From IMG/VR virus record IMGVR_UViG_3300009034_000007, positions 1-64,000 of that record: DNA of 64,000 bases, one strand, 5' to 3'. The position numbers were made by a program, and so were the translations under genes. This stretch comes from a virus. Below the pieces are notes generated by a model, which was not told the origin of the DNA, made no database searches, and saw only the letters and a program-made list of their open reading frames with translations. The first letter of the stretch is position 1. Every line of letters begins with the position of its first letter. Below, piece by piece: positions 1-34,722 of the stretch.

Positions 1-405
1 ATAATTATAACTTAATTCACGACCTCTATATTTACTCGGTATAGGCATCACTTTATATTTACGCCATTCACGTAAAAAATTATAAGCAAAATCACGATAG
101 ATATTTATATCTTGTACGTACTTACTATTCTTTTTATTAAACCTAAATATGACTACTGCAAAAGACCAACTACGATTAAGCGTTTTATGCATTTGAAAAA
201 ATCCCTGTAGTTTATTTACTACTATTTCTCTACAACCGTGCCAGGAATCTTTAACTGCCACAAGTTTATTATCAAGTATTTGCGTTTCAAAATGATTAAT
301 TGAATTATATTGAGATAAAACATATTCTCTTGCAAGATTAATAAATGATTCCTTTAGATTAAATGTTGCTCTAGGATAAAAATACATCAAATTCATTTCA
401 GTCAT
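1..405 (-). CDS. Unknown protein, partial (C-terminus beyond window)
   Basis: An open frame runs leftward from an ATG at 403-405 to the window edge without a stop, giving about 135 residues. The start overlaps the end of the upstream gene by 8 bases, as is common in this operon. No family is recognised. A stretch with a Cys-Arg-Glu pattern loosely resembles a segment of the next gene upstream (398-1432), so the two could be distant paralogues; that similarity is weak and seen by eye only. Confidence 0.6.
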   Translation of the reverse strand, partial: MTEMNLMYFYPRATFNLKESFINLAREYVLSQYNSINHFETQILDNKLVAVKDSWHGCREIVVNKLQGFFQMHKTLNRSWSFAVVIFRFNKKNSKYVQDINIYRDFAYNFLREWRKYKVMPIPSKYRGRELSYNY

Positions 406-1432
406 TGAATAATTCCTCGTAACTTTTAATTGGTGTTCTTAACTGTCTCCCAAAATTATCAATTAAATCCATAGATGGATAACCTAACTGTTTGAGAATA
501 CGTTTTCTTTTATTCACTCCTCGAATACCTTTTAGTCGCTCTCCAATTAAATTATATACATGTGATATTAAAGATAGAGGTCCATCTGAGTCTAATACAG
601 TTTCATTCCTTGCTTGATTAAATTCTGTAGGTGCAATATAATAATGTATTGGTTTCAATCTAAAATATCCCTTGAATAGATCATTATAATACGAAACGCA
701 CCAGAATAAAAATGACCTATTACATATTGCATCTATCCATATAAATGATTCATAATCATCTTCATAAAGATCATCCATAGGTGCATCATCATAACTTTTT
801 CCACTTATTGTTCCATTCATTATAAAGTCTCTTATACTATTAATTATCCCACGAAAAGTTTTAAATCCAGTAGGTTTTTTTGATATAATTAAAATTGGCT
901 CTCTAAGAAGTAATAAAAAAGCCGACGCACTTGTAAAAGCAGTTATATTATCATGATAAGTAATAACAAATGAATAATAAATATCATTCATATTACAAAA
1001 TCGATCCATTAATTCAGTAGGAATATTTGAGTGTTTAAAATAATCTTTAGCTAATTTTCTATAGTTATCAGGTGTAACAAAACTTCTAGAAGTCTCAGAA
1101 ATTTTATATACTTCTCGATAATATGAATCATTTAGAGTATATAAAAATTCATCACTTTTAATAAAAATAATTATATTCTCACAAGGAGGTTTATAATGAT
1201 CTGCCTCGCCACCATAATTAATCCACTCACGTATCAGGCTAACTATTACCTCTCTACATTCTATATTAAAACTAGTACGAACCTTAATATTAAAACGTTC
1301 TTCTAACTCTTTATAATTAGAGTCATCATAAAACGTATGCTGACTGTTAAAAAAGTGATCATATAATGTCTTCAAAGCTGGACAATCATAATTAATTTCA
1401 TCGTTAAATTTTATACCTAGCATACTAATCAT
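398..1432 (-). CDS. Unknown protein, 344 aa
   Basis: No domain is recognised. The protein is rich in aromatic and charged residues and has no signal peptide or clear membrane span. The ATG at 1432 is preceded by AAGGAG at good spacing and overlaps the stop of the upstream gene (TAATG), so translation is probably coupled. It is the second-to-last visible gene of the leftward accessory operon that carries the amidoligases, and its role is presumably tied to that operon, but nothing in the sequence shows how. Confidence 0.7.
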   Translation of the reverse strand: MISMLGIKFNDEINYDCPALKTLYDHFFNSQHTFYDDSNYKELEERFNIKVRTSFNIECREVIVSLIREWINYGGEADHYKPPCENIIIFIKSDEFLYTLNDSYYREVYKISETSRSFVTPDNYRKLAKDYFKHSNIPTELMDRFCNMNDIYYSFVITYHDNITAFTSASAFLLLLREPILIISKKPTGFKTFRGIINSIRDFIMNGTISGKSYDDAPMDDLYEDDYESFIWIDAICNRSFLFWCVSYYNDLFKGYFRLKPIHYYIAPTEFNQARNETVLDSDGPLSLISHVYNLIGERLKGIRGVNKRKRILKQLGYPSMDLIDNFGRQLRTPIKSYEELFND

Positions 1433-2217
1433 TAAAATCTCCTTCGTATATTTTCAAATTCATCTATCATTTTTTCCGTGATAGTAGATACATTAAATTC
1501 TTTAGCTTTTTCTAACGCGTCAGAAAATGAATTTCTACGATTGAGAATCGATGTTATCATTTCTAGATCAGATTTAACTGATCGAGGTAGTTCAAAATGA
1601 TAATCTGTTGGACTTCTTCTTTCGCGTCTTTCGCGATTATTATTACTTTCATTATTTTTTATGGCAAGGAATTTAAGTAATTTAGCCATTCCATCGTGAA
1701 TAAAAAAACCAGGCTCAAAAGCAGAAATACAACATTCCTTCAGTAAAAAATAAACGTAATATGCTATAGTTAAATCATCATTACTTTGTGCTATGTGGAG
1801 AGATTTCGCGGGACAAGATGGGTAATCTATTAAACAAATTACACGAAGCGTATAAAAAATTAAATAGGAAAGTAATTTATCAGACCAAACTGTAGGTTTT
1901 AATAGTCTGAATTCTGCATTATAAGCACTGCATAAAAATCTAGTATCATCATCTATTAATCTAATAGATTCATTAATAAGCGTAACCTCATAATTATAAA
2001 TACGCCCCAAATTAGATAGGAAAAAATGTTCAACCATCCAACTTTCCAATGTAGTTCTTATTATTATTTGAAAAGATTCAATTGGAAAGTTAAAAAGATG
2101 CATCATTTCTTCTACTGACTCTACCTCAAAAATTTCATCACCATATCCTATATACTTACACTTAGGATTAGTATAAAGAACTTGATCAAGACATTCACTT
2201 TCATCATAAATTTTCAT
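1432..2217 (-). CDS. Unknown protein, 261 aa
   Basis: A soluble protein without recognised motifs. Around residue 195-205 there is a short Arg/Asn-rich low-complexity segment, followed by a helical, charged C-terminus. The start ATG at 2217 has GGAG eight bases upstream and overlaps the amidoligase stop by four bases (ATGA). Position directly downstream of the amidoligase suggests membership of the same functional module. Confidence 0.7.
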   Translation of the reverse strand: MKIYDESECLDQVLYTNPKCKYIGYGDEIFEVESVEEMMHLFNFPIESFQIIIRTTLESWMVEHFFLSNLGRIYNYEVTLINESIRLIDDDTRFLCSAYNAEFRLLKPTVWSDKLLSYLIFYTLRVICLIDYPSCPAKSLHIAQSNDDLTIAYYVYFLLKECCISAFEPGFFIHDGMAKLLKFLAIKNNESNNNRERRERRSPTDYHFELPRSVKSDLEMITSILNRRNSFSDALEKAKEFNVSTITEKMIDEFENIRRRF

Positions 2218-3143
2218 GTTATTAGCTCCAATATATTAACATAATCGTCATAATTAATATATCTCAAATGAGCAAGTCGATCCATTATATAATGAGCTGT
2301 TGATTTAGCACGTTTAGTATCAAAAGTTAATATATTTTTAGGAATATTATCTACATCTCCACTATTCAATATTTCACTAGCGTCACTAGGATTTAAGCAT
2401 AAATTATAGACACTGTTCATTAGCGTTAATAATGCATTACCTATCTTATCGTCAGTGATCCAAAAATTACTCGGAACACGATATTCAATACCTCGTAAAT
2501 TATTACCATAGTCCTGTAGTCTTATCTTTCCAGGTCTACCGTAGTATTTTAATCTACTTTTTTCAGCCTCAACCCAATCATTACTAGGTCTATTAATTGC
2601 TACACCAGTATTACCTACTAAAATATCCATTAATCTAGTAGCATGATAAAAAATTTCCTCAAATAGTGTTGGATTATTTAATGGAGCTTGCATATGTATA
2701 TGACCACCACCATATCTCTCAGGAATTTTACTTGAATCCGTTTCTACACTATATTCTCCTGAGTAAATATCCAGATCAGGATCACATCCAAAACGCACAC
2801 AATCTCTGAAATTTTCACCACGCTTTTGCCAGTATTTTTTCAGATCAAAAGGCACAGTGGGATAGACAACAGCTTTTAATTTAAATGATTCTGCTAGTTT
2901 TTGAACAGCATTATAAGCTCTACCGAGCCTATCAAAAATTTCACTAACATTATCAGACGGGGCGATATTAATTTCAGTAGCCGCCCCGTCTTCAATAATT
3001 TTCCAGTCTTCATCCTCAAGAAGCGTTTTAGCTCTTAAATAATCTAAATTATAATCTTCCTTTAATGCTACTGGTGGAATACACCAACCACCATCATTAA
3101 CAATAAAAACCTCTGGATCAGTTCCAAAAACTGTGTCAAACAT
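2214..3143 (-). CDS. phiEco32-type COOH-NH2 ligase (amidoligase)
   Basis: Predicted ATP-dependent ligase that forms an amide bond between a carboxyl and an amine, with the glutamine-synthetase/GCS fold. Visible family signatures are GTDPEVF near the N-terminus, a downstream acidic patch ending in EIN, the Gly-Gly-Gly-His-Ile-His-Met motif in the middle, and a GIEYRVPS segment near residue 225. These match the COOH-NH2 ligase family first noted in phage phiEco32-like genomes. The substrate is unknown. I place the start at the ATG at 3143 rather than three codons earlier because GGAG then has 9-base spacing. A second amidoligase of another subfamily lies at 7519-8688, with an ATP-grasp ligase and a glutamine amidotransferase between them. 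Confidence 0.85.
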   Translation of the reverse strand: MFDTVFGTDPEVFIVNDGGWCIPPVALKEDYNLDYLRAKTLLEDEDWKIIEDGAATEINIAPSDNVSEIFDRLGRAYNAVQKLAESFKLKAVVYPTVPFDLKKYWQKRGENFRDCVRFGCDPDLDIYSGEYSVETDSSKIPERYGGGHIHMQAPLNNPTLFEEIFYHATRLMDILVGNTGVAINRPSNDWVEAEKSRLKYYGRPGKIRLQDYGNNLRGIEYRVPSNFWITDDKIGNALLTLMNSVYNLCLNPSDASEILNSGDVDNIPKNILTFDTKRAKSTAHYIMDRLAHLRYINYDDYVNILELIT

Positions 3144-3144
3144 T

Positions 3145-3636
3145 TTATTCATCTCCTACAAACCAAGCATTTTCGGTGCTAAATTGATCATTTTGTGAAA
3201 GAGGCAATGGATTTAATCTAAGCACCCTTCGTGCGTTACTTATTTCAGCCTCGGCAATATTTACTCGTTCGGCTGGTCGCTTATTTCGATCACCAAATAT
3301 GGTAAATTGATCATAAGATGTATCTTTATCTAAACACGCTGGACAAATTACTAATGTCTTTCCCACATGTATTTTTTCACTAAGAGGGGTAATATTTTCG
3401 CAATCATCACACTTAAAATTAGCATTATCAAGATTATTAACTTCATTATGGCATCGAGCACAATAAATTACTGTAGTATCAGTGATTTTATCAAATTGCT
3501 TAAGAAAATCACTTTCCATTATTCGATGTTTAAAAAATGTAGCATTTCCTTCGTTAAAATCAAAAAATGATTCTACTAAAACTTGAATTGAATGACGAAT
3601 AACTAATGCCCCACCACATTCATGATAAAGTCTCAT
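3145..3636 (-). CDS. Zinc-ribbon protein, unknown function
   Basis: 163 residues with three Cys-x2-Cys pairs in the middle (CARC, CDDC, CPAC), consistent with one or two structural zinc sites. No enzyme motif is visible. The start has a strong GGAGG and overlaps the stop of the upstream gene by four bases. It sits between the unknown 3633-4799 gene and the amidoligase, so it may act as an adaptor in that system, but this is only positional inference. Confidence 0.7.
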   Translation of the reverse strand: MRLYHECGGALVIRHSIQVLVESFFDFNEGNATFFKHRIMESDFLKQFDKITDTTVIYCARCHNEVNNLDNANFKCDDCENITPLSEKIHVGKTLVICPACLDKDTSYDQFTIFGDRNKRPAERVNIAEAEISNARRVLRLNPLPLSQNDQFSTENAWFVGDE

Positions 3637-4799
3637 TGTTTTACCTCCGTATACGAGAATTTAACATTGGTAATGCTTAAGAATTTTGAACAGTAATCGG
3701 AAATATTTTTAATCATTTCTGGAGGAGCACTTTTTCCTTTAAATTTAATTTCAAGAGAATTTTTAAATTGTAGTAAAGTAAAAGCTGGTCCGAAATATTT
3801 AATCCCCGCAATTATTGGTGAATAAAAAACTATTTTGCCTTCAGGATTTAACACAACTTCATCCTCTCCTAAAACAATATTACATTGTGTGTTGAATAAA
3901 CCTTTACAGTGATAAAAAACAACAAATGATACTTTTGCCATTTCTGTTGGTTTTTCAGTCATTTCAATATCAGTAAGAACATCCTCATTGTAAATATTAT
4001 ATACTTTGCCATCTCTATTAGTAGGATGTATAGGTTCTCTAGATACTCCTACACTTTTAGGTAAATTTTTAATCTGTTCTTTAGACAATTCGACACCTAC
4101 ACAAATATCTTTTATAACTTCTGGATTAAGTCTATAATTATTATCAGTGGGAAGCGTAATATTAATTGCATTAGCTCTACTACCTATAGAATTTAAAAAT
4201 AACTGAAACATTAGTTTAAGAATTTTTGAATCGAATTCTGATCCTTCATGTGATAATAAACCTGGATATTTAAGCTCTATCCAGTCATCAAAAAACGGTA
4301 AATATAACTTTGCTTCATATGTTGTAGATATATATTTAGCATCGTTATCTAAAGTAATTAAACAAATTTTATCTCTAATATCATTTTTGTGTTTATCTAT
4401 TAAAGCATTTAATCCTTCAATAGTAACTACAGGTAATTTGCTATAAATTTCTTCACAGCAAGACATACAAGATTTATCACCAACAAACCATTCTCTATAT
4501 TTATCGTCAAGTATTATAATAACATCTTCGTTAGGAAGATAATACTTATTAGCTATTTCAATAATTTTATTTTTAGGTAGAGTTTTTCCTGTTGAGTAAA
4601 CAAACTTAGCCTCATGCACTTTAATAGTAGATTTATCCTTTTTTGATAACTCCACTTTATAACGTACATCAGGATACGGCATTAACCTAAATGGATGTTG
4701 AAAAGCCTCTGTTGGTGCAAAAGTTAATGTAGCAGGTGGAGTTAATTTTACTGAGCTAGTAATATAACTTACACATGTTGAATAAGAGTAAGCGGCCAC
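3633..4799 (-). CDS. Unknown protein, 388 aa
   Basis: A large soluble protein with no family I recognise. It contains a short CMSCC cysteine cluster near residue 110 and a mixed alpha/beta pattern. The predicted start is a GTG at 4799 with an AGGAAG ribosome site; it overlaps the end of the AAA+ ATPase gene by 31 bases. The overlap and the operon position suggest co-expression with the AAA+ ATPase, possibly as its partner or substrate. Confidence 0.65.
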   Translation of the reverse strand: MAAYSYSTCVSYITSSVKLTPPATLTFAPTEAFQHPFRLMPYPDVRYKVELSKKDKSTIKVHEAKFVYSTGKTLPKNKIIEIANKYYLPNEDVIIILDDKYREWFVGDKSCMSCCEEIYSKLPVVTIEGLNALIDKHKNDIRDKICLITLDNDAKYISTTYEAKLYLPFFDDWIELKYPGLLSHEGSEFDSKILKLMFQLFLNSIGSRANAINITLPTDNNYRLNPEVIKDICVGVELSKEQIKNLPKSVGVSREPIHPTNRDGKVYNIYNEDVLTDIEMTEKPTEMAKVSFVVFYHCKGLFNTQCNIVLGEDEVVLNPEGKIVFYSPIIAGIKYFGPAFTLLQFKNSLEIKFKGKSAPPEMIKNISDYCSKFLSITNVKFSYTEVKQ

Positions 4800-5578
4800 T
4801 TTAAAAACTTCCTTCCTCTTGGGGTAATTGCTATGTTGCCATTTTCAATTAACCAAGGCTCGATTTCTTTCATTAGTGTATTCCGATCTATTTGCAATGC
4901 TCTTGATAAATTAGTTAAACTAGATATTTCAATATCTCTCAAAAATGTAAGATAACGTACATCTTCTCTAGTATATCCTTCATCATGAATCCCCAATTGA
5001 TTTAACACTTCATGGACGTATTCAAAAGTAGAAGGATAACCATAATAAGTTAGCATCATTTTTACACGATCAAACCTTTGTTTAACTAATCGCGGACTAC
5101 CTCTTGATGCTTCAGCCAGTAATAAATAACTCTCAGTATCTTTAAGAATAAAGCGTCTTCGCTGAGAGTAATCTTTGGCAATCTTAGCCAATTCTTTAAT
5201 AGAATAGGGTTCAAAAGTTAATCTAATGCAACGTGTTAAAAATGGATCAGGAACATTACCATATTCAGTAGTGCAAAAAAGAAAGACTTTTTCTTTACTA
5301 TCCATATAGGGATAAAGAGGCTCATGATGTCTTAATTCATGAATTTCATCAATAAAGTTAACCCTCTTCTTTTTTATCCAGGATATATTTATCTTTCCCT
5401 TGTCAGGAATTTGAAAACAGTAGTATTTATCAATACGTTTAGCAATTAAAGTAGCTAGAGTAGTTTTACCACAACCAGCACTACCTTGTAATAATAAATT
5501 AACTGAGCCTCCCTCTTTAAGAGAGGCTATTAATGGAGCAACTTCGTTCATTATTGTTTTTTGACCTATGAAAGACAT
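4769..5578 (-). CDS. RuvB-like AAA+ ATPase
   Basis: AAA+ ATPase of 269 residues. Walker A is GSAGCGKT at residues 32-39 and Walker B is NFIDEIH at 74-80. The C-terminal third looks like the winged helix of RuvB, ending with a TPRGR motif as RuvB does. RuvB drives Holliday-junction branch migration, but the domain is shorter than bacterial RuvB (about 330 residues), no RuvA is seen, and the neighbours are amide-bond-forming enzymes. It may therefore act as a motor for another process, for example remodelling proteins. The start has GGGAGG upstream. It overlaps the ATP-grasp gene by 62 bases. Confidence 0.8.
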   Translation of the reverse strand: MSFIGQKTIMNEVAPLIASLKEGGSVNLLLQGSAGCGKTTLATLIAKRIDKYYCFQIPDKGKINISWIKKKRVNFIDEIHELRHHEPLYPYMDSKEKVFLFCTTEYGNVPDPFLTRCIRLTFEPYSIKELAKIAKDYSQRRRFILKDTESYLLLAEASRGSPRLVKQRFDRVKMMLTYYGYPSTFEYVHEVLNQLGIHDEGYTREDVRYLTFLRDIEISSLTNLSRALQIDRNTLMKEIEPWLIENGNIAITPRGRKFLKWPLTLIQHV

Positions 5579-6347
5579 TTGTTGCCTCCCTGTTCTCTTG
5601 GAAAAAGTTTCTAAACAACTCTGCGTATAATTCCAGAGAGGAGCTATTTAGTGATGGAGCTGAATTAACTTCCCAAATTATCCATCTATTCAGCTCTTTT
5701 TTAATTGACCACGCCATATCAATTCCACAGAATACTACGCCAAGAATATCAGCTACTTTAACAGCCGTTTTTATTAATGATTTAGCACACAATACTTTAC
5801 TTAAATTAGATCGAACGTATTTCCATCCATGATGGGATGATCTAATAAGCGGATCCGCATTATCATCAATAGGATATTTTCTAAACACCTTTACTACTTC
5901 TCCATTAAACACATGAACACGATATTCTCTAGAGGTAGGATAAATATCTACTAAATAATTTGCATCTGAAGGAATATCATCATATTTATTACATATTACA
6001 ATATCATTTCCTGCTTTATGATGACGTTTTCTAGCCATAACAGGAAAAGTTAAATTATTTGGTAATATGTTATTATAACAATATGGATAATAAATCGGTG
6101 ATAGTAACTCTGGATCAACTGCTAAAAATTTCGATAACAAATGTTTAGCCGAGCATTTTAAAATAGCATCCACGGAATTAATACAAGTATCTTTAACTAT
6201 CCTACCAGAGTCCTGATAATTACCGTATCTAATTAAAATTTCACTTTGATCTTTAATTTTATTCACATTACTGTGAAATTTTAAGTTGAGTAACTTAGCA
6301 AGTGCTTTGCCTGAATTAAAACCTGCTTTAGATGCTAGTAAGTACAC
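5517..6347 (-). CDS. ATP-grasp ligase (RimK/YheC-like)
   Basis: ATP-grasp fold protein of 276 residues. Diagnostic features are the REYRVHVF strand near residue 142, a basic ATP-binding lysine/arginine region, and the magnesium-binding EVNSAPSLNS motif near residue 232. ATP-grasp enzymes activate a carboxylate as acyl-phosphate and join it to an amine or thiol. The substrate is unknown. The start is a GTG with AAAGGA upstream, overlapping the glutamine amidotransferase end by 20 bases. Its position between two amidoligases and a glutamine amidotransferase supports a peptide or amino-acid ligation pathway. Confidence 0.8.
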   Translation of the reverse strand: MYLLASKAGFNSGKALAKLLNLKFHSNVNKIKDQSEILIRYGNYQDSGRIVKDTCINSVDAILKCSAKHLLSKFLAVDPELLSPIYYPYCYNNILPNNLTFPVMARKRHHKAGNDIVICNKYDDIPSDANYLVDIYPTSREYRVHVFNGEVVKVFRKYPIDDNADPLIRSSHHGWKYVRSNLSKVLCAKSLIKTAVKVADILGVVFCGIDMAWSIKKELNRWIIWEVNSAPSLNSSSLELYAELFRNFFQENREATNVFHRSKNNNERSCSINSLS

Positions 6348-7518
6348 GTTTTAATCCTTTTTTAGATTCCATAAACCACGGAAATTGTAATTTTAATTCA
6401 TCATAAATTTTCATGTGAGTAGCGTCAGCATGTTTACCATAATAACCTTTTACTAAAGCTTCCCATGTCCCAAGTTTTTTCTGACCTTTTGTATTTTTAT
6501 AAATATTTGAAAGTTGTGTTAAAACTTGCTCGATAAATGTTGCTAATTCGCTACTATATTTAATATCAAATAAGCTTTTGCCGAAAGTTATGTAATACAA
6601 GTAATTCAATTCCTCAAAAGTTAAGTGCATTTCTTTAGCATGAGATACAACGTTAAATATTACAGTTTCGCTATAATCTACGCGTGAGTAATAACCTCTA
6701 CCTGTTCTATGTGTGCTATAATACCAATCATCATCATAAATAGTAATAGCAGTGCGTTCTATAATCTCGGTTGAGCTTTTAGAAAGTTTAGCGTTATTAA
6801 TGTTAAATAGATAAATACTATCATCATCTAATGATTTAGGCTGTTCGATTGTTAATTTACCCAAACCAAGTGACCTTATAAAATATGGTAAAACCATATT
6901 TGTAATATTCTCAGGTACAGTATTGATTACATGACATATTACATTCTTTTTATCATCTAAAATTCTGGTTTTAACTAATTCAGGAGTTTTTCCTTTTACA
7001 ATAAAGATATGGTCTTTTTGCAGTTTATCATAAATTAAAAAAGCAAATTTTCCTGAAAATTTTTCATATGCTTTAACAATATGTTTAGCTGTTAACTTTT
7101 TACTGTTCACAATAGTTGCTAAGTGAGCCGCAAACCAAAAACTATCAATTTTATCTTTAATTCTTAATTCTTTCTCATCTGTATCTAAAGTTCCATTATG
7201 CATCAGTAAAATATTATCAATTACATGAGGATGAGAATTATCTACAGATATTACTTTAAAACCTGTGCTTGCTAATCTTGTATGAGCTAATAATGTAACT
7301 TTATTTAACCCCTCGCACATATCATCTAAAGCATCTAAAAATCTATCCGTATAAATAGCATCATGAGCATCCTGAGATGTTTTAAAAAGTTTACCGTTAT
7401 CGACACAAAATACACCAAATCCATCTTTATTACCAGACTGAGCGTTTAATGTACACATATTAATTAAAATGGATTTAGCAATTTTAGTCTCACCGTGTAT
7501 TAATGATAATGTACACAT
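6328..7518 (-). CDS. Class II glutamine amidotransferase (Ntn hydrolase)
   Basis: N-terminal nucleophile glutaminase of 396 residues. The catalytic cysteine would be Cys2, exposed after Met removal. The glutamine-binding signatures HTRLAS (near residue 79) and HNGTL (near 108) are both present, as in GlmS/PurF-type domains. The domain hydrolyses glutamine to ammonia and glutamate. The C-terminal 200 residues are not a known synthetase domain and are rich in Lys and Tyr. The start has GGAGG. Ammonia from this enzyme could feed an amidoligase or ATP-grasp partner, a combination described for predicted peptide-modification systems in phages. Confidence 0.85.
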   Translation of the reverse strand: MCTLSLIHGETKIAKSILINMCTLNAQSGNKDGFGVFCVDNGKLFKTSQDAHDAIYTDRFLDALDDMCEGLNKVTLLAHTRLASTGFKVISVDNSHPHVIDNILLMHNGTLDTDEKELRIKDKIDSFWFAAHLATIVNSKKLTAKHIVKAYEKFSGKFAFLIYDKLQKDHIFIVKGKTPELVKTRILDDKKNVICHVINTVPENITNMVLPYFIRSLGLGKLTIEQPKSLDDDSIYLFNINNAKLSKSSTEIIERTAITIYDDDWYYSTHRTGRGYYSRVDYSETVIFNVVSHAKEMHLTFEELNYLYYITFGKSLFDIKYSSELATFIEQVLTQLSNIYKNTKGQKKLGTWEALVKGYYGKHADATHMKIYDELKLQFPWFMESKKGLKRVLTSI

Positions 7519-8688
7519 TTAATCCTCCTCTGGATATACTGACATTCCCATGTTGTTTAAAACATGAATATCAATATAATTTGGCTTACGCACTAATTTA
7601 AACTCTTTACGTGTTAGTATTGATGGAAAGAAATCTGAATAATCATTATTATGAAAAATATGATAGCCATTAGTTAAATGACACATAATTGGGAAGTCAT
7701 CATATTCAGGATCAGGACTTCTATTCCAAATTTTTCGTAATAATAATGAAGCTCTAATTGGGATGCCAAAAAAATTAATCATTTCTTCAAAATGAGCATC
7801 CTGATCTATTATTCCATCGGCTAAAGAATTTACATGTCTTTTTAATTTAGATAATACTTTAGGAGTCGAATATTCATAACAACTTTTAACAAATGCCTTA
7901 CATAATTCTATAATAGCATACAAATAATCCCATCGCATTGTTTTATTAAATAAGCGAAATTCTAAGTCTGGTCGTTCTTTATTATATAAATTACGAAAGT
8001 TAATCCAACAATATCTGCATGGATGATAACGCCCCTCCGAGGCATAAATATCTCCACAACGAACAAAAAATTCATTATGCGTTTTACTTCCCAAAACTTC
8101 ATCATAAACTAATAAAGGTCTGTAAAAACCTCTACCATCTTTAACAATATGAGGTCCATTATCAGTTATTGGACGATAATAAATATAATCCATGTTAATA
8201 CCACGATGTTCTCTACCCATTCCACCAAGTTTAAAAAACGCCCATTCAAAATAACCTGCCATCATCCAGGCACGTCTTAAAATACCTACTGTATGTCTAC
8301 TTCTTCTTAAGTAATCTTGGGGCATATTAACATGAACATGAATACTACCACGCGTTGTTTTGGAACGCTCACCAGCTCTTTTAAGTAAAGAGAATATATC
8401 ATCAAATAAAGATATATATCTATCATCTGAGGTATTAATAATTGGACTAACAATCTCTCCACCAATAGTCTTTACATTTTTTAATAATGCATTTACCGTT
8501 CTATCTAAAGACGCTCCTTTAATTGGTAAATCTTTTAATGTTGGACATGGAGATTCTACTGACGCATCATGAGTAACTTGAAAATCATTTCCACATAAAA
8601 AATTCATTAATTCTTCATGTCTACGTGGAATAATATCAGTATATTCTATCTCTATACCAACATGATTCCAAGGTTCTTTTTTACTCAT
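7519..8688 (-). CDS. Amidoligase, Amidoligase_2-like
   Basis: Glutamine-synthetase-fold amidoligase of 389 residues. The family pattern is clear: GIEIEY at the N-terminus (metal/ATP-binding acids), HDASVESP near residue 40, GGEIVSP near 77, the IHVHVNM histidine motif near 115, and LEFRLFN near 243. A four-cysteine-like CRYC patch lies in the middle. It is predicted to join a carboxyl and an amino group using ATP. The ATG overlaps the upstream stop (TAATG) and has only a weak ribosome site, so translation is probably coupled. Together with 2214-8688 it forms the amidoligase module. Confidence 0.85.
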   Translation of the reverse strand: MSKKEPWNHVGIEIEYTDIIPRRHEELMNFLCGNDFQVTHDASVESPCPTLKDLPIKGASLDRTVNALLKNVKTIGGEIVSPIINTSDDRYISLFDDIFSLLKRAGERSKTTRGSIHVHVNMPQDYLRRSRHTVGILRRAWMMAGYFEWAFFKLGGMGREHRGINMDYIYYRPITDNGPHIVKDGRGFYRPLLVYDEVLGSKTHNEFFVRCGDIYASEGRYHPCRYCWINFRNLYNKERPDLEFRLFNKTMRWDYLYAIIELCKAFVKSCYEYSTPKVLSKLKRHVNSLADGIIDQDAHFEEMINFFGIPIRASLLLRKIWNRSPDPEYDDFPIMCHLTNGYHIFHNNDYSDFFPSILTRKEFKLVRKPNYIDIHVLNNMGMSVYPEED

Positions 8689-8897
8689 TATGTAATTTCT
8701 TTATCTGCTACAAGCCACATTACTCTAGAAAGTAATGTAAGTAATTGAGCTAAATAAAACTGTTTTTCTACTAATCCACAGTTTTTCCAATTTACAATGG
8801 CTGTTTCAGCATACATAGATAAATCCCATAAAATTTGATATTGATTTGCTTTTAATAATTTATCATTATCTATAATCCCCTGTCTTATTGTATACAT
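8688..8897 (-). CDS. Small unknown protein, 69 aa
   Basis: A small mostly helical protein with a hydrophobic C-terminal half, preceded by a good AAGGAG ribosome site. No family is recognised. It overlaps the amidoligase start by one base. Confidence 0.6.
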   Translation of the reverse strand: MYTIRQGIIDNDKLLKANQYQILWDLSMYAETAIVNWKNCGLVEKQFYLAQLLTLLSRVMWLVADKEIT

Positions 8898-14791: not shown

Positions 14792-15160
14792 CTAGTGTCC
14801 TAGCTTTTGTTTGATATACTTGTTTGGCATATAACCTAATTCAAAGTAATCAAACTGTGCTACAAGATCAATTGCTTTAGCGTGCAACAACCTCAATATT
14901 CTATCTCTGCACTCTGAATCTCCATTTACTTGATCAATTGTTAACTTTGAATCCATCATCACAACAATATTTAACATGTTACGATTCAAACACCATGTCA
15001 AAGCCATAAGCAAAGATCGATATTCGGCCTGATTGCTTGTACCCAAGCCAAAGATATGTTGTTTATGTCCCACTAAATTTCCTCTGTCATCATACACTTT
15101 AAATGAGCCATAAGCTAATCCATCTCGCTTACCACCATCAGCTATTACTAGATGATACAT
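14792..15160 (-). CDS. Ribonuclease HI-like protein
   Basis: 122 residues with an RNase H fold pattern: Asp8 on the first strand (IADGG), Glu46 in QAEYRSLL and Asp70 in MMDSKL with the following QVNG. These are three of the four catalytic positions; the final Asp/His region is reduced to a short basic tail. It probably cleaves RNA in RNA-DNA hybrids, for example Okazaki primers. The start overlaps the methyltransferase end by 23 bases. Confidence 0.75.
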   Translation of the reverse strand: MYHLVIADGGKRDGLAYGSFKVYDDRGNLVGHKQHIFGLGTSNQAEYRSLLMALTWCLNRNMLNIVVMMDSKLTIDQVNGDSECRDRILRLLHAKAIDLVAQFDYFELGYMPNKYIKQKLGH

Positions 15161-15959
15161 CCTCTAATACCTTTCTAGCCTCATCTACATATGCCTCGTT
15201 TATATCGAAGCCCAAATAATTTCTCCCTAACTTCTTTGCCTCAACTAGCGTTGTTCCTATTCCACACATCGGGTCTAATACCAAGTCATCCTCTCGACTG
15301 TACGCTCTTATGGCCCAATTAGCTAAACCATGTGCCATAGGTGCTGGATGATCTCTTTTAGTATCCTTATTTAAAATCAAGTAATTTGGTGGAACTTTCC
15401 CATCAGGATGAGGCGTAACCATCTTCCTCTCAGGAAACTCACCATCTTCCGTTGCTTGCATCTTATTGATTGGATACTTCATTCGTTTCAAACTTGATTC
15501 AGCATAAGATGTACGTACAGCATCCCGATAAAACTGTACAAGTTTTGGGTCACGACCAAAGACGAGATTATGTTCATACGCCGCGGGCGGTCGATTTTGA
15601 AACGCCTTTGGTAGATAAGAAGTCTTAAGCCACGGAAAATCCTCAATCAGAAATAAACTTTCATCAGCCTCTAATGCTAAAATTAGTTTATAGATGACGG
15701 TCATCTTTCTACCATCTTTATAACCTGACCCCGTATTCCACCAAATAACGCCTGTATCCTTCAACACAAATGATAAAGTCATAAGCATTGATATACAAAA
15801 TTCATACCAATCTTTCGGTGATTTAAAATAATCCCAAGCCTTTCCATATTTTCTAGCGTTATAATACGGAGGCGAGGTTACAACAAGATCGACGGCTTCA
15901 ACATTAGGAAATATAGTTAGCCAATCTTCAACATAAACATTATTAAGTTTGTACGCCAT
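15138..15959 (-). CDS. DNA N4-cytosine/N6-adenine methyltransferase 1
   Basis: 273 residues from the ATG at 15959 (AAAGGA upstream); an earlier ATG lies far inside the previous gene. Motif IV TSPPYY is at 28-33 and the SAM-binding motif I DPMCGIGTT lies near the C-terminus, so the order is the permuted beta class. The SPPY form suggests N4-cytosine or N6-adenine methylation. No cognate nuclease is adjacent. It is one of four DNA methyltransferases between 15138 and 20413. Confidence 0.85.
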   Translation of the reverse strand: MAYKLNNVYVEDWLTIFPNVEAVDLVVTSPPYYNARKYGKAWDYFKSPKDWYEFCISMLMTLSFVLKDTGVIWWNTGSGYKDGRKMTVIYKLILALEADESLFLIEDFPWLKTSYLPKAFQNRPPAAYEHNLVFGRDPKLVQFYRDAVRTSYAESSLKRMKYPINKMQATEDGEFPERKMVTPHPDGKVPPNYLILNKDTKRDHPAPMAHGLANWAIRAYSREDDLVLDPMCGIGTTLVEAKKLGRNYLGFDINEAYVDEARKVLEDVSSSNS

Positions 15960-16968
15960 AGTGCTTAATCCTTTCCGTTGCGTATTCAATTTGTTCTTCT
16001 GATGCATCAAACCCCATCCAGTCTACTCCATATTTTATAGCTGATACCGCTGTTGTTCCACTACCCATAAATGGGTCTAGGACTAAACCTGGATTCAACC
16101 AAAAATCCCAATGTCCTGACGGTGTTGGATGTTCACAGTGAGAAAAACTTTTAAAGTGTGGTAACATAGGTCTAGGTTTTCCGCACACAGGACAAACAAA
16201 TCGTGGACATGCCGCTTTAATCACCATATCAGTTAAACTTACAGGATATACAGCGAAGTTCTTTCTCCCATAAGACTTCATAAACGGCTCTGCCCCTTTA
16301 GGTGGAATAATAAACCATACATTCGCTCCCATCTTCGTCCCACTTCTAGTCTTAGCAGGTATCTTAGCCTCTTTATGATTGAAATAACCATATTTATCTT
16401 TAGTCATAAGATAAAGATATTCCCAAGATGTCATATATCTGTCTAGAATGGGTGACGGAGTCGCACCACCCATTGAATCCCCATCAGGCATTTGAATACC
16501 CTTAGCCCATATAATTTTGTCTCGAATAATAAATCCTTCATCCATAGCCAGAAACATCATCATTTCTGGAATACCAATAAAACTTTTTGGTGGCACGTCA
16601 ACATCCACATCAATAAACGCGAGATCACCATCCCAATCAGCATAACCACCAAAATTCGGTCCCTTGTTACTATCTAATGTATCCCGCCTCCCACGCTGTC
16701 GCCTCTTACCTTGTGAACGGCAGTCTCCAATGTTAAACCAAAAACTCCCTGTTGGTTTCATCACCCTCTTTATTCCTCTAAAAATAGGACGAAATTTCTC
16801 TACATAATCACGCGGCGATTTCTCAAACCCAAGATCAGAAACAAAATCATAATCTCTAGCTTGCCAATATGGGGGTGATGTAACGATAACATCAACCGAA
16901 TTGTCAGCTAATTCAGCCAAGCCATCTAAGACATCTATGCGGTAAAAATTATTCCGTTCTAAAGTCAT
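15943..16968 (-). CDS. DNA N4-cytosine/N6-adenine methyltransferase 2
   Basis: 341 residues. Motif IV TSPPYW is at 30-35 and motif I DPFMGSGTT is near residue 300. Between them is a long target-recognition region with an Arg-rich KRRQRGRRD stretch and, near residue 262, CPVC plus a later Cys/His pair that may bind zinc. The gene overlaps its downstream methyltransferase partner by 17 bases, and both are similar in motif order, so they may have arisen by duplication. Start with GGGAG upstream. Confidence 0.88.
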   Translation of the reverse strand: MTLERNNFYRIDVLDGLAELADNSVDVIVTSPPYWQARDYDFVSDLGFEKSPRDYVEKFRPIFRGIKRVMKPTGSFWFNIGDCRSQGKRRQRGRRDTLDSNKGPNFGGYADWDGDLAFIDVDVDVPPKSFIGIPEMMMFLAMDEGFIIRDKIIWAKGIQMPDGDSMGGATPSPILDRYMTSWEYLYLMTKDKYGYFNHKEAKIPAKTRSGTKMGANVWFIIPPKGAEPFMKSYGRKNFAVYPVSLTDMVIKAACPRFVCPVCGKPRPMLPHFKSFSHCEHPTPSGHWDFWLNPGLVLDPFMGSGTTAVSAIKYGVDWMGFDASEEQIEYATERIKHYGVQT

Positions 16969-17338
16969 TCAACTTCTCCCTAATTTCGGCAGTTTGCTTC
17001 TTTGAAAGCTGTCGCCATGTGGGATGGGGTGCATAAATGTGTTCGAGTTTAGCATCCACTAGACCAGCGTGTGCTACTGTTCCGCAAGCTAGTATCACAT
17101 CGGGTTTGATTCTGTAATACCATCTTTTGATATGTGCTGGATCAGCAGGAAAAGTAGCATTAGCATGATTACCAGTCTGAGGACTAGCATTTATTACACA
17201 TACCTCCATATCGTCAGGAATCATTTCGGCTAAACGTCTACCAGTCTGTGAATTCCATAAATCTTTCAGCCAACGCTTCCTCTTTCTAGGTTGCCCATCC
17301 CTATACCATGCACATTGAAGCACAACCAAAAGTTTCAT
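16949..17338 (-). CDS. Uracil-DNA-glycosylase-fold-like protein
   Basis: 129 residues. The pattern of an N-terminal VVLQCAW strand, an INASP segment near residue 48, KPDVILACGTVA near residue 80, and HPTWR near 104 resembles the uracil-DNA-glycosylase superfamily, where a C-terminal HPS-type loop contacts DNA. The canonical GEAPG catalytic loop is not visible, so activity is doubtful. Context (methyltransferases, dUTPase-like, cytidine deaminase) would fit a DNA-base role. Overlaps methyltransferase 2 by 20 bases. Confidence 0.45.
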   Translation of the reverse strand: MKLLVVLQCAWYRDGQPRKRKRWLKDLWNSQTGRRLAEMIPDDMEVCVINASPQTGNHANATFPADPAHIKRWYYRIKPDVILACGTVAHAGLVDAKLEHIYAPHPTWRQLSKKQTAEIREKLNDFRTE

Positions 17339-17472
17339 TTTTCTTTTCTTCCCTTCTTACCTATAGTCCGAAGTATTGTAAAGATAGAACGTCCATCAAT
17401 CACCATTCTATCCCATGATTTTCGTTTCCTGTCACGTCGTTGCCAGCGTTTCTTGTCACGTTTTCTCGGCAT
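17335..17472 (-). CDS. Small highly basic protein, 45 aa
   Basis: A small frame between two larger genes, starting at the ATG at 17472 and ending with a stop that overlaps the next ATG (ATGA). The first 20 residues are almost half Arg or Lys (for example MPRKRDKKRWQRRD), suggesting nucleic-acid binding. It fills an otherwise empty 117-base gap and overlaps the upstream methyltransferase by 17 bases, like its neighbours. Confidence 0.6.
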   Translation of the reverse strand: MPRKRDKKRWQRRDRKRKSWDRMVIDGRSIFTILRTIGKKGRKEK

Positions 17473-18178
17473 ATAAAATTTCTACTCTCTCTACTGCTAT
17501 ATTATAAATATCTTGATCAATCTCACTCCCAATAAATAGTCGATTGGTCTTGATACAAACTGCGGCAGTTGTCCCACTACCCATAAAAGGATCAAATACT
17601 AAATCGCCTTCCTCTGTGGTAGCTAAGACAATTCTTCGTATAAGTCTTTCGGGTTTTTGCCACTTAACCTCGCTAATTCGTTCAGACGACATAGTATGAA
17701 AATTGCCGATGTCGGTCCAAACATCCGTGGGCAACTTCTTACCCGTACCCTTAACATCAAGAGCCGTTCCAGCAGTTTTCTTTGGAATTTCGACATTTGT
17801 GGGATAAAATTTATAAGACTTAGCTTTTGCATACCAAAGAACATCATCGTGTTTCCTTCCGAAAGCATTTTTAGGCCTCCCGCCCCAATCATAGGGCCAG
17901 ATTATCCAGTTAATAAATTTATCTCTACCGAACAAATGATCCATATATAATTTCAATTCGGCTACACTTCGTTGATCAGTCTGAACAAAGATACTACCAG
18001 TATCAGATAAATTGTCTCGACATAAGGGTAGCCATCGTGCAAAATCGAAATCATCATACACCATATCAGCATAAATAGTATCGGCTGATCTAAACCACCT
18101 TTCATTCATTATCTTAAGAAGATCGATACAATCAGCCCTATATAATTCTATTTCTGGTCTTACCCATACTTGAGTCAT
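17456..18178 (-). CDS. DNA methyltransferase 3 with altered motif IV
   Basis: 240 residues from the ATG at 18178 (TAATG overlap with the primase stop). The SAM motif I DPFMGSGTT near residue 200 is intact and a GKKLPTDVW segment is typical of type II/III DNA methyltransferases. The catalytic motif IV, normally DPPY, reads DMVY at 38-41. Loss of both prolines may reduce activity or alter specificity. It is downstream of an intragenic consensus promoter at 18470. Confidence 0.8.
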   Translation of the reverse strand: MTQVWVRPEIELYRADCIDLLKIMNERWFRSADTIYADMVYDDFDFARWLPLCRDNLSDTGSIFVQTDQRSVAELKLYMDHLFGRDKFINWIIWPYDWGGRPKNAFGRKHDDVLWYAKAKSYKFYPTNVEIPKKTAGTALDVKGTGKKLPTDVWTDIGNFHTMSSERISEVKWQKPERLIRRIVLATTEEGDLVFDPFMGSGTTAAVCIKTNRLFIGSEIDQDIYNIAVERVEILYAEKT

Positions 18179-19035
18179 TATACAACTATCCTTGCTTTCT
18201 CTTGAAGTAAATCCATAAACTCCTCTTTTGTCCATCCAGCCTTGAAGAAATCACTGACATCATATCCCTCGTCAAATCCTTCAAAAGTATAGCCTCGAAT
18301 TAAAAAGCCTAAAATCTTACCAATTCGCCGTAAACCCTGTCTACCTCCAGCATCATTATCAAAGACGACATACATTCGGTCCAAGTGCATAAGCTTATGC
18401 ATCCAGAGAGGGTTGAAATGTCCTGCCCCCACACTAGAGGCTATAGCTGGAATGTTATTCTGTATACACATTATAGCATCTACTGGTCCTTCTGTCAAGA
18501 CCGTCCAATTAGTATTTTTGATACCATCCAAGTTGAAGGGAAGATTACCCAACCCACGATACCAATATTTCACCCTTTTTACACCATCTACAATTTTCCT
18601 ACATTGAAAGTTAGCTAACTTCCCTTCAACAATAATCGGGATGGTATACCACTCCCCCGTATAGCCTAGTTTAAACATATCAACTGTGCTATGAGTATAA
18701 CCCCTATTAGTAATCCAGTAATCTCGATGCTGTTTACCCAATTCGTAGAAAGAATCTAGTAATTGTCTACTGATTACATGGTGACGAACAGGAGGACGAT
18801 CAATATATAATCGTCTAGCAATAGGCTGACCTAAAATTTTTCTAGCCTCACCATATGACAATTCTTTAACTTTCGTCAACCATGTAAAAGCGTCACCATA
18901 AATACCTTTTGAATTCCAATAAAAGATATTTCTTTCGATATCAATAACTAAACTATCATGTTCAATAGTTTTAAGATATCGACCAGACCCCGTAATCGTA
19001 AAGTCCTCGGCAACAAGATCAATCACATCAACCAT
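18178..19035 (-). CDS. DnaG-like primase with TOPRIM domain
   Basis: 285 residues from the ATG at 19035 (GAGGAC upstream). The TOPRIM motifs are present: LTEGPVDAI at about 180-188 and FDNDAGG at about 225-231. An upstream KLGYTGEWYTIPI stretch matches the DnaG N-terminal subdomain. The N-terminus aligns with the CHC2 zinc domain (the NIFYWNSKGIYGDAFTWL pattern) but lacks the zinc ligands. It would synthesise RNA primers with the DnaB helicase at 25140. The absence of zinc ligands is unusual. Confidence 0.85.
   Translation of the reverse strand: MVDVIDLVAEDFTITGSGRYLKTIEHDSLVIDIERNIFYWNSKGIYGDAFTWLTKVKELSYGEARKILGQPIARRLYIDRPPVRHHVISRQLLDSFYELGKQHRDYWITNRGYTHSTVDMFKLGYTGEWYTIPIIVEGKLANFQCRKIVDGVKRVKYWYRGLGNLPFNLDGIKNTNWTVLTEGPVDAIMCIQNNIPAIASSVGAGHFNPLWMHKLMHLDRMYVVFDNDAGGRQGLRRIGKILGFLIRGYTFEGFDEGYDVSDFFKAGWTKEEFMDLLQEKARIVV
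18470..18498 (-). promoter_or_regulatory. Perfect consensus promoter inside primase gene
   Basis: On the minus strand, TTGACA, a 17-base spacer and TATAAT, with TGC before the -10 (extended -10). It coincides with the codons for the LTEGPVDAIM motif, so part of the match may be constrained by the protein. It would drive methyltransferase 3 and downstream genes. Confidence 0.45.
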
Positions 19036-19318
19036 TACTGTCCTCTTTCTCAAGAATGTATTCTGCAAGTGTTATCCACATCAATAACCAGCCAGCTTTT
19101 TGACTACCGACTTCAACACGAACAGCCACACCGCTCCCTTCATGTATGACAATACCACATGCGTCCTTAGATAAACCTTTACCGAGCGCACGATAAAGTG
19201 TAACAAGTTTCTCTCGTATTTCCCACCAGCGAGGGACTGCTACCTTTTTACGGGCCTCGTATTCTTCCTTCTCTTTAAGAAGGTCTTCCTTAATGATGCC
19301 ATCCATCGCAAGTCCCAT
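19028..19318 (-). CDS. Unknown protein, 96 aa
   Basis: A charged N-terminal helix followed by an alpha/beta segment (GIVIHEGSG). I chose the ATG at 19318 because GGAG lies five bases before it; an ATG eight codons earlier lacks a ribosome site. No family recognised. Overlaps both neighbours. Confidence 0.55.
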   Translation of the reverse strand: MGLAMDGIIKEDLLKEKEEYEARKKVAVPRWWEIREKLVTLYRALGKGLSKDACGIVIHEGSGVAVRVEVGSQKAGWLLMWITLAEYILEKEDSNG

Positions 19319-19835
19319 CCTCGCTCCAATAATCCCATTCATGGTTAGCGTGACCGTTATTGTACTTCACTGGATGACAATTCTTCCTATCCTCTGCACC
19401 CTCGCCTTCTCCCTGTTCACAATGACAAAATACCGCCTCCACTGTTGGAGTTGGCGGTATTAATGTATTAGTAGGAACAACAACTGTTACTGTCGGTGTC
19501 GGCGTCGCCTCGACTGGTGGCGTGACCGTCCCTTTCGGGGTCGGACTCGGCCCTTGTTCTGTTTCCGTAGCCGTCGGTCCTTCCGTAACTGTCGGTGTTT
19601 GCGTAGGGACTTCGCCATCACATACACACTCCTTAATTTCTACTAGTAATTTAATAATTTCAAGATGGGTATGTTGTGCAATAGTATCTTTTAATGTATC
19701 ACAACTACCCGAACATAATTTATAATCAACAACGTAAGCATTTTTCTTTGTTGCTAGATTGTAACCCATACCAAACATCCCACCAGCAAAAAGTATTACA
19801 ATCACTGCTCCAGCAATTATCCTTAAAATCTTCAT
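19290..19835 (-). CDS. Membrane-anchored Pro/Thr-rich surface protein
   Basis: 181 residues. A hydrophobic N-terminal anchor (about 5-24) is followed by a cysteine-containing stalk (near 41-72), a roughly 60-residue Pro/Thr/Val-rich linker with TPTPTV-type repeats (about 76-133), and a short Cys/His-rich C-terminal knob. The protein probably sits outside the cytoplasmic membrane. Such TP-rich linkers are very common in Chloroflexota exported proteins, a hint about the host. Function unknown; it could modify superinfection or the envelope. Its linker DNA is noticeably GC-richer than its neighbours. Confidence 0.65.
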   Translation of the reverse strand: MKILRIIAGAVIVILFAGGMFGMGYNLATKKNAYVVDYKLCSGSCDTLKDTIAQHTHLEIIKLLVEIKECVCDGEVPTQTPTVTEGPTATETEQGPSPTPKGTVTPPVEATPTPTVTVVVPTNTLIPPTPTVEAVFCHCEQGEGEGAEDRKNCHPVKYNNGHANHEWDYWSEDGTCDGWHH

Positions 19836-20413
19836 TTCCTTGCCTCCAATTCTATGTCTGATTGGACTTCATTCCCCCAAGAATCCCAACCGCTTACTTT
19901 TTGTCTTGCGAATAATTCAACCCTCGGTAAATCACCAAATAGTTGCACGATTCTGTCTCTGACCTCTCCAGGTTTTTCAGAATGGCGACCTCTTGGTGTG
20001 ATAACCAAATTTCTAACGCTTCTATCAAGTCTTTCCAGTATTTTTCCTCGTGTTCCGAGGAGACAGATTTCAGGGTTTGCACGCGTATAATATCCCAGGC
20101 CCATATGAAAATCTTTATCGAGATTAACTATTGGACCTCGTGATTTAGGCCACAGCTTTACCCATGTAAAAGCTACAGTCTTATATTTGAATTTCCACGC
20201 TTTCATAACTTTCAAAGCGTCTAATAAATTTGGATACGTAGCCCACAAGAATAGCATAGCATTATCAGCCGCAATATCCTTGATGGGTAGTTTACAAATA
20301 TCCTCTACATTCATAGTAGGATATTTATGGCTGACGTGTCGATCCGACTTAGCTACATTCCAGACTGAGAAGTGCCAGGGCGGGTCTGCGTAGATGATGT
20401 TGTACATTCCCAT
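19832..20413 (-). CDS. MT-A70 family N6-adenine methyltransferase
   Basis: 193 residues with the hallmark DPPW at 10-13, directly after the first beta strand as in phage MT-A70 proteins. A later ANPEICLLGTRG segment and RGRHSEKP are also typical of the family. It is predicted to methylate adenine in DNA (or RNA) using SAM. It is the fourth methyltransferase in the cluster and shares no obvious partner nuclease. The start overlaps a zinc-ribbon gene by 61 bases. Confidence 0.9.
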   Translation of the reverse strand: MGMYNIIYADPPWHFSVWNVAKSDRHVSHKYPTMNVEDICKLPIKDIAADNAMLFLWATYPNLLDALKVMKAWKFKYKTVAFTWVKLWPKSRGPIVNLDKDFHMGLGYYTRANPEICLLGTRGKILERLDRSVRNLVITPRGRHSEKPGEVRDRIVQLFGDLPRVELFARQKVSGWDSWGNEVQSDIELEARK

Positions 20414-33466: not shown

Positions 33467-33666
33467 TTCGCAAGGGCAAATGTAATCGGTGTGGTAAATG
33501 TTGTGATTATGGGGGTAAATGGCCGTGTGAATATTTAAGATTTGATGGGGATATTGCTATATGTAATATCTATGAAAATCGACCTAAAGTGTGTAGATTA
33601 TATCCACAAAGACTCGAAGATGTGTTTGAAGGGTGCGGATTTTATTTTGAAGAGGAGGGTATATGA
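33460..33666 (+). CDS. YkgJ-like CxxCxxCC protein, copy 1
   Basis: 68 residues with eight cysteines: CNRCGKCC at the N-terminus, then PCEYL, a middle Cys, VCRLYP and a C-terminal GCGFYF. This is the zinc/iron-chelating YkgJ family pattern. A paralogue lies at 38281-38547 with the same eight-cysteine order. The two bracket the sugar-dehydratase/FtsH block. Function unknown; it may bind a metal cluster. It overlaps the neighbouring start and stop. Confidence 0.75.
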
Positions 33667-34721
33667 GTAAGATAGCTTTGATTACTGGTATAACGGGTCA
33701 GGATGGTAGTTATTTAGCTGAGTTACTGCTTCACAAAGGATATGAAGTTCATGGCGTGATGCGTAGGTCTAGTACTTTTAGCACGGAACGTATTGAACAT
33801 ATATTTCCGAAACTAAAGTTACATTATGGTGATCTGTCAGACGGGACCAATTTAGTTAATCTATTAAATAATATTATGCCTGATGAGATTTATCATCTAG
33901 GTGCTATGTCTCATGTCAGAGCATCATTTGATATTCCTGTCTATACTGGCGAAATCACAGGTTTGGGTACGACTAGGCTTCTGGAGGCTATTAGACATAT
34001 TGGATTTCGTCCTCGTTTCTATCAAGCTTCAAGTTCGGAAATGTTTGGGGCTAGTCCTCCACCACAGGATGAAGAAACTCCATTTCGTCCTCAAAGTCCA
34101 TATGCCGTAGCAAAAGTGTATGCTTATTGGACTGCTAGAAACTATCGTGATGGCTATGGATTGTACATTACCAATGGAATATTATTCAATCATGAAAGTC
34201 CACGTAGAGGAAAAACTTTTGTAACTCGAAAGATTACAAGAGCTGTAGCACGAATTAAAGCAGGGTTTCAAAAGGATTTATACTTAGGTAATTTAGATTC
34301 TAAACGCGATTGGGGATATACTCCAGAGTATGTTGAAGCTATGTGGAAAATGGTGCAAGAAGATATTCCAGATGACTATGTACTAGGGACAGGAGAAACT
34401 CATACTGTAAGAGAGTTTGTACGAGAAGCTTTTAGCTACGCCGAATTAGATTGGAAGAAGTATGTAAAGTTTGATAAGCGATATCTGCGACCCACAGAAG
34501 TTGATGTTTTACAGGCTAATCCTACTAAGGCTAAGTATAAGTTAGGTTGGGAGCCTCAAATTAGTTTTTATGATCTTGTGAAAATTATGGTTGACGCTGA
34601 TCTACAAGCCACTGGTCTAAATCCCATAGGTAAAGGTGTGGACATTGTTGATGGGCGATTTAAATTTGGTTGGCATACATGGGATAATAGCGTGACAGCC
34701 TTATTAAGGGAGGCACGATAA
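33663..34721 (+). CDS. gmd: GDP-mannose 4,6-dehydratase
   Basis: 352 residues, the normal length of Gmd. The Rossmann NAD(P)-binding [10 protein letters not shown] is at 8-17 and the catalytic YAVAK motif near residue 150 follows SSEMFG (Ser/Glu). It makes GDP-4-keto-6-deoxymannose from GDP-mannose. With the aminotransferase at 47640 it gives a route to GDP-perosamine. GAGGAGG ribosome site. Its AT content resembles that of neighbouring genes. Confidence 0.95.
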
Positions 34722-34722
34722 T

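Follow-up and report, generated by a model that had tools for sequence, protein, structure and literature searches.

What is an ATPase of the RuvB family doing in a phage operon of amide-forming ligases? The question is raised by positions 1 to 64,000 of the IMG/VR virus record IMGVR_UViG_3300009034_000007 - the whole stretch analysed here, referred to below as the window. On its minus strand, from 8688 to 2214, lie seven genes that all overlap or abut their neighbours, coding in order for an Amidoligase_2, a glutaminase, an ATP-grasp enzyme, an AAA+ ATPase, a 388-amino acid (aa) protein that we call U, a 163-aa zinc-ribbon protein and a COOH-NH2 ligase. Judged by sequence, the core of this operon is an already described phage cassette of the phiEco32/LUZ24/RIO-1 kind, and the RuvB-like AAA+ protein is a new part, a conserved cassette member in one clade. 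We consider it likely that the operon represents a new form of this cassette, in which a ring ATPase that acts independently of RuvA serves amide or gamma-glutamyl ligation.

An earlier note on this DNA had named five genes, and open reading frame (ORF) coordinates together with Pfam and phrog matches place all five where it had them, on the minus strand. Amidoligase_2, a predicted glutamine synthetase (GS)-fold carboxylate-amine ligase of 389 aa, occupies 7519..8688 (Pfam PF12224, 3.7e-11) and is followed by a class II (Ntn, N-terminal nucleophile) glutamine amidotransferase of 396 aa (6328..7518; GATase_6, 1.1e-7), a RimK-like ATP-grasp ligase of 276 aa (5517..6347; PF08443 (RimK), 6.6e-6; phrog_2599, 4.6e-26) and the RuvB-like AAA+ ATPase, 269 aa with a winged helix (4769..5578; RuvB_C, 9e-11; RuvB_N, 1.1e-7). 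These four are consecutive, as the note had said of all five, but the phiEco32-type COOH-NH2 ligase (312 aa, 2214..3152; phrog_3815, 1.5e-27) is parted from the AAA+ gene by U, a fast-evolving protein without a Pfam match (3633..4799), and by the zinc-ribbon-like protein (3145..3636; Zn_ribbon_8 at 0.0012, below cut-off). The interval 2214-8688 thus holds two such additional proteins, not the three unknown ones counted previously. The gene overlaps, taken from ORF coordinates, amount to 62, 31, 20, 8, 4, 4 and 1 bases, in agreement with the long overlaps of up to 62 bases reported before, and the alignment of the AAA+ protein, which starts within the 62-base overlap, with its homologues begins at its first residues.

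The genes named in the note do lie within 2214-8688, but the operon reaches past this span in both directions. A 69-aa ORF (8688..8897, minus strand) lies directly upstream of the Amidoligase_2 gene with a stop/start overlap of TAATG; on the strength of this overlap only we infer that it belongs to the operon, and counting it, eight overlapping or abutting genes span 8897 to 2214. After the COOH-NH2 ligase gene come, on the same strand, a 261-aa protein (1432..2217, a 4-base overlap) and a 344-aa protein (398..1432, a 1-base overlap with the preceding gene), which take the operon to position 398 and still not to its end. The window is part of a record of 96,729 bases that is classed as linear. 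The two record ends nevertheless share exactly 99 bases once a trailing N is disregarded, and the genome is therefore very likely circular, and probably complete, at 96,629 bases. Translation across the junction continues the minus-strand operon past the window start with a 351-aa protein (its 5' part at 1..405, its end at record 95979) and then with the gene for a C26 enzyme of gamma-glutamyl-hydrolase fold (record 95986-95030, outside the window; phrog_7218, 2.9e-25), which adjoins the cassette once the record is circularised.

How much of this gene set is new? Four annotated phages, RIO-1, CW02, KZY1 and QDWS535, carry the COOH-NH2 ligase, Amidoligase_2, glutaminase and ATP-grasp genes together, and similar sets occur in the annotated Vp_R1, A24 and crAss-like cr108_1. 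ORFs 21-29 of UFV-P2 comprise the same genes plus a GGCT-like protein (PMC3890496), and RIO1-like phages have been described as carrying a seven-gene 'peptidoglycan modification cassette', including two amidoligases, an ATP-grasp enzyme, a glutamine amidotransferase and a gamma-glutamyl cyclotransferase, which is stated to be common to phiEco32, LUZ24, PaP3 and others and is proposed to prevent superinfection (PMC5498523); PMC10580990 quotes the same role, citing Iyer et al. 2009. We found no experimental test of cassette function in the literature searched. Our own survey yielded 112 loci (some contigs counted twice) with both amidoligases, glutaminase and ATP-grasp but no RuvB-like AAA+ gene nearby, and C26 is also present in 82 of them. 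The suggestion in the earlier note that the set may be undescribed therefore does not hold for the two amidoligases, ATP-grasp and glutaminase, which are in print (PMC5498523, PMC3890496) and in annotated records; it does hold for the AAA+ variant, as none of the annotated phage records searched contains a cassette with a RuvB-like AAA+ gene.

Set beside the cassette of phiEco32, LUZ24, RIO-1 and CW02, the window operon shares the close linkage of COOH-NH2 ligase, Amidoligase_2, class II glutaminase, RimK-like ATP-grasp and (often) C26, as well as proteins of 240-350 aa beside the COOH-NH2 ligase. It differs in adding the RuvB-like AAA+, zinc-ribbon and 388-aa proteins, in its order, with Amidoligase_2 first and the COOH-NH2 ligase late, and in that no gamma-glutamyl cyclotransferase was found in the record.

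Scans of viral contigs with single proteins (Amidoligase_2, COOH-NH2 ligase and U) gave no matches, and family alignments were needed to detect relatives. Ten further environmental phages combine the cassette with the AAA+ gene (L012, L013, L014, L015, L016, L017, L019, L086, L177 and L189), so that the neighbours do co-occur in related phages, a recurrence on which the earlier note had made its proposal depend. Among these relatives most cassette proteins stand at only 25-40% identity, and the flanking genes mostly differ. The gene order of the window is nevertheless kept in seven, L012-L017 and L086, with two shorter ORFs replacing U in L017 and L086; L019, L177 and L189 are rearranged, yet retain both amidoligases, glutaminase, ATP-grasp, zinc ribbon and AAA+. 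In the window and in eight of the ten relatives the AAA+ start overlaps the end of the ATP-grasp gene or lies no more than 20 bases from it, the exceptions being L019 and L189, in the latter of which AAA+ overlaps the glutaminase gene instead. A contig-wide search returned exactly one AAA+ match, within the cassette, in each of nine clade contigs tested and none in 25 contigs with the ordinary cassette. A tree of the COOH-NH2 ligases unites the cassette of L094 in one group (support 92) with all AAA+ cassettes known at that point, ten in number, and needs two changes in AAA+ presence, which we read as one gain and one loss.

RuvB-like genes also turn up near such enzymes in a more distant lineage. 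In L113 (6001-10468) a longer AAA+ protein (343 aa) with a shortened hairpin is encoded between glutaminase-like and ATP-grasp genes, adjoining a weak Amidoligase_2 match, and in L115 a RuvB-like AAA+ gene lies 2.4 kb away. These may represent a separate recruitment.

Is the AAA+ protein, then, simply a phage RuvB? Its family profile matches RuvB (3pfi) at 1.5e-42, in two pieces, and the 3pfi residues between about 133 and 150 are skipped. Correspondingly, 23-25 residues separate the Walker-B glutamate from sensor 1 in the cassette proteins, against about 47 in RuvB as counted from the 3pfi profile alignment. The segment missing from all members examined is the presensor-1 beta-hairpin, by which RuvB binds domain III of RuvA (PMC9477746). 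What is shared with RuvB comprises Walker A and B, sensor 1, the arginine finger and a C-terminal winged helix with a conserved Gly-Arg; Walker A and B, R116, the arginine finger and G255-R256 of the winged helix are invariant. No RuvA gene (PF01330) was matched in the window phage or in its ten relatives, though a host RuvA is possible. On alignment evidence, the protein descends from RuvB-like ATPases; ATP hydrolysis is probable and DNA binding possible. We rejected its membership of the RuvAB Holliday-junction motor: the RuvB P-loop and RuvB_C are present, but the hairpin is missing and no RuvA is encoded. The profile match, the missing hairpin, the lack of a RuvA gene and the invariant motifs therefore describe a RuvB-descended ATPase outside the RuvAB motor, and one whose gene, unlike that of RuvB, lies in an amidoligase operon.

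The enzymes of the cassette appear intact. The COOH-NH2 ligase gives a Pfam match of 0.0012, under that family's cut-off, and has D12, E14, E60, H151, H153, E223 and R225 invariant across distant phages. In Amidoligase_2, E13, E15, E78, H117, H119, E148, E243 and R245 do not vary in 49 homologues, an alignment made without sequences from annotated phage records. Its AlphaFold2 model (predicted local distance difference test, pLDDT, 83; predicted template modelling score, pTM, 0.88) has a GS-like fold, with YbdK as the best match, followed by Dop, gamma-glutamylcysteine synthetase, PafA and glutamine synthetase; viral fold matches include the cassette amidoligases of CW02, tf, Vp_R1 and LAh_9. 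As the template modelling (TM) scores are modest, at about 0.3-0.46, they fix the fold family of Amidoligase_2 and not its substrate. One scan found no relative of this protein in bacterial genomes. As regards pupylation, the fold resembles Dop and PafA, with a better score for YbdK; no Pup-like protein was recognised here, and the AAA+ protein is of RuvB type, not of the proteasomal Mpa/ARC type.

Similar conservation is seen in the remaining enzymes. C2, R81, H107-N108-G109 and D125 of the glutaminase are invariant in 13 homologues, its C-terminal part being without an assigned function, and the C26 enzyme has a conserved Cys-His-Glu set. The ATP-grasp enzyme shares fold and catalytic residues with RimK and LysX, and the best solved relative of its family profile is RimK (2.1e-10), which ligates glutamate to ribosomal protein S6; the match to D-Ala-D-Ala ligases is weaker (1.1e-6). 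Alignments of homologues thus confirm the catalytic motifs that the earlier note had read from the letters, and since these residues are conserved, with a GS-like model for Amidoligase_2 in addition, the loss of amidoligase active sites that the note had named as fatal to its proposal is not seen.

Less can be said of the non-enzymatic members. Protein U matches no Pfam family, and tblastn against the phage collection returned nothing for it; a counterpart lies at the same position in most relatives; an AlphaFold2 model from four sequences (pLDDT 31.6) was not used. In the zinc-ribbon protein C7, C59 and C62 are invariant in 10 cassette members. A LysW-like carrier role for it was considered and rejected: the C-termini of ten such proteins differ and have no conserved glutamate motif, unlike the LysX system, whose LysW carries a conserved C-terminus.

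One to three proteins of about 240-350 aa adjoin the COOH-NH2 ligase in AAA+ and ordinary cassettes alike. They are often clear paralogues within one phage (1e-30 in L016, 1e-25 in L086), while profile comparison recovered no single family across subgroups or phages; the 261-aa protein of the window gives a weak match (0.005) to a similarly placed protein in L013. A Cys-Arg-Glu motif occurs at residues 23-66 in 12 of 24 downstream proteins of the clade, against 0.28 expected from shuffled sequences (maximum 3 in 2000 shuffles), and Cys-Phe/Tyr-small in six of nine from ordinary cassettes, against 1.1 expected; since the motif was picked out by inspection, these figures overstate the precise odds, and the excess is large nonetheless. 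In the window the Cys-Arg-Glu carriers are the 344-aa protein (residue 59) and the 351-aa protein (residue 58). Among the relatives, it lies within the first 70 residues of similarly placed proteins in L086, L017, L015, L019, L177 and L189, with Cys-Phe/Tyr in its place in other subgroups and ordinary cassettes. Possibly the downstream proteins belong to a single, rapidly evolving family in which the cysteine is functional.

What might such an assembly do? Enzymes of these families free ammonia from glutamine (glutaminases), form amide bonds through acyl-phosphate intermediates (GS-fold and ATP-grasp ligases) and cut gamma-glutamyl bonds (C26). In the pathway that we propose, the class II glutaminase would release ammonia from glutamine, and the two GS-fold ligases would activate carboxylates as acyl phosphates and couple them to amines or to ammonia, probably in gamma-glutamyl linkage or as side-chain amides. 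The RimK-like enzyme would put an amino acid, probably glutamate, on a carboxyl group, and the C26 enzyme would trim gamma-glutamyl bonds. The AAA+ protein would form an ATP-driven ring, uncoupled from RuvA, and would open up or position either the acceptor or the assembled enzymes so that modification can proceed; U and the zinc-ribbon protein are putative adaptors, and the acceptor is presumably intracellular. Because of the RimK logic, a protein or peptide chain is our first choice of acceptor, by analogy and tentatively; a peptidoglycan precursor is possible, a small molecule unlikely and DNA very unlikely. The presence of the AAA+ protein suggests that acceptor or enzyme assembly needs remodelling, which favours a macromolecule. 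It is conceivable, as a long shot, that ligases and RuvA-free ring form one machine, loaded on DNA through the winged helix, that tags DNA-bound proteins or DNA with amino acids or short peptides; if so, this would be a phage peptide-tagging system steered by an AAA+ motor.

Several observations weigh against this explanation. The cassette of L094 has U and the zinc ribbon and lacks AAA+, and close AAA+ homologues occur with neither amidoligase found in L185 (9989-10759; near-copy L186) and L188 (3877-4647); in L188 two neighbouring proteins are weakly like M42 peptidases and one is a zinc-ribbon/zinc-finger protein, again by weak likeness. As both fall among cassette members in the AAA+ tree, and as their contigs are 40 and 44 kb and perhaps incomplete, either the ATPase is able to act in phages that lack the ligases or the contigs are partial; AAA+ is in any case not obligatory in, or strictly tied to, the cassette. 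The record moreover has no PF06094 match for a gamma-glutamyl cyclotransferase, which we did not treat as cassette-defining given that other members also do without it. The winged helix points to DNA, and a wall- or protein-directed pathway leaves that unexplained. To our knowledge, finally, no cassette member has a known substrate.

It could be argued that the AAA+ protein belongs to the usual replication or recombination factors of phages, resembling RuvB or clamp loaders, and that its gene only happens to lie in the same early operon as those of the amidoligases. Its close kinship to RuvB, the conserved DNA-binding-type winged helix, the amidoligase-free L185 and L188 and the situation of the cassette among replication and nucleotide genes all fit this. 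We nonetheless think it fairly unlikely: of the 13 distinct places where AAA+ was found, 11 are in cassettes, among them that of L189, which was found by AAA+ sequence alone, while the surrounding genes are mostly not common to the relatives; ordinary-cassette contigs carry no copy anywhere; and both the RuvA gene and the RuvA-binding hairpin are missing. Another reading makes the AAA+ protein an accessory to a cassette that alters peptidoglycan stem peptides, by amidation or added amino acids, against superinfection, as proposed for RIO-1-like phages. This is a published hypothesis (PMC5498523; also in PMC10580990, after Iyer et al. 2009), and wall peptides suit amide and gamma-glutamyl chemistry, with the D-Ala-D-Ala ligase match, though weaker, in keeping. 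The ATP-grasp enzyme is, however, closer to RimK, the literature searched contains no experimental test, and a winged-helix RuvB-type ATPase is not known to have a role in wall synthesis; we regard this reading as possible rather than probable. Production of a free small molecule or peptide, for export or for use against competitors or host defences, seems unlikely: linked ligases of such kinds often yield peptide metabolites (PMC4431377), but Pfam and phrog scans of the cassette proteins recognised neither a carrier protein or thiolation domain nor a transporter or precursor peptide. We prefer a cassette whose ligation is served by the RuvB-descended ATPase. Two further candidates were tried and rejected, namely Tet/JBP-type DNA hypermodification (no Tet_JBP match) and a defence system of a known anti-phage type (PADLOC returned nothing beyond short matches of P-loop type and a single weak match to Cas10).

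Elsewhere in the window, a full-length GDP-mannose 4,6-dehydratase gene (Pfam 1.5e-130) and a gene for a 646-aa FtsH-like AAA+ protease (M41 peptidase domain, 6.9e-21) follow one another at 33663-36663 on the plus strand and seem unusual phage cargo. On the minus strand, a 250-aa ORF at 11817-12569 matches the ribonucleotide reductase barrel over no more than about 110 positions; its homologues in related phages are 531-634 aa long, which suggests a gene remnant or a split gene. A putative DNA methyltransferase cluster lies at 15138-20413, also on the minus strand: two of its genes match N6_N4_Mtase (15138-16010 and 17456-18235), a third (15943-16968) is a homologue, and a fourth matches MT-A70 (19832-20413).

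The amidoligase cassette is widespread, including in well-studied Pseudomonas and Escherichia phages, and its substrate has been a guess since 2009. To it can now be added an ATPase of the RuvB family, with the hairpin for RuvA lost and the gene moved into an enzyme operon. Deeply diverged phages have kept this ring-type ATPase next to the ATP-grasp ligase, which suggests a need for mechanical or assembly work in this branch. Such a need would point to a macromolecular acceptor, not a free metabolite, and offers a testable clue to the substrate.

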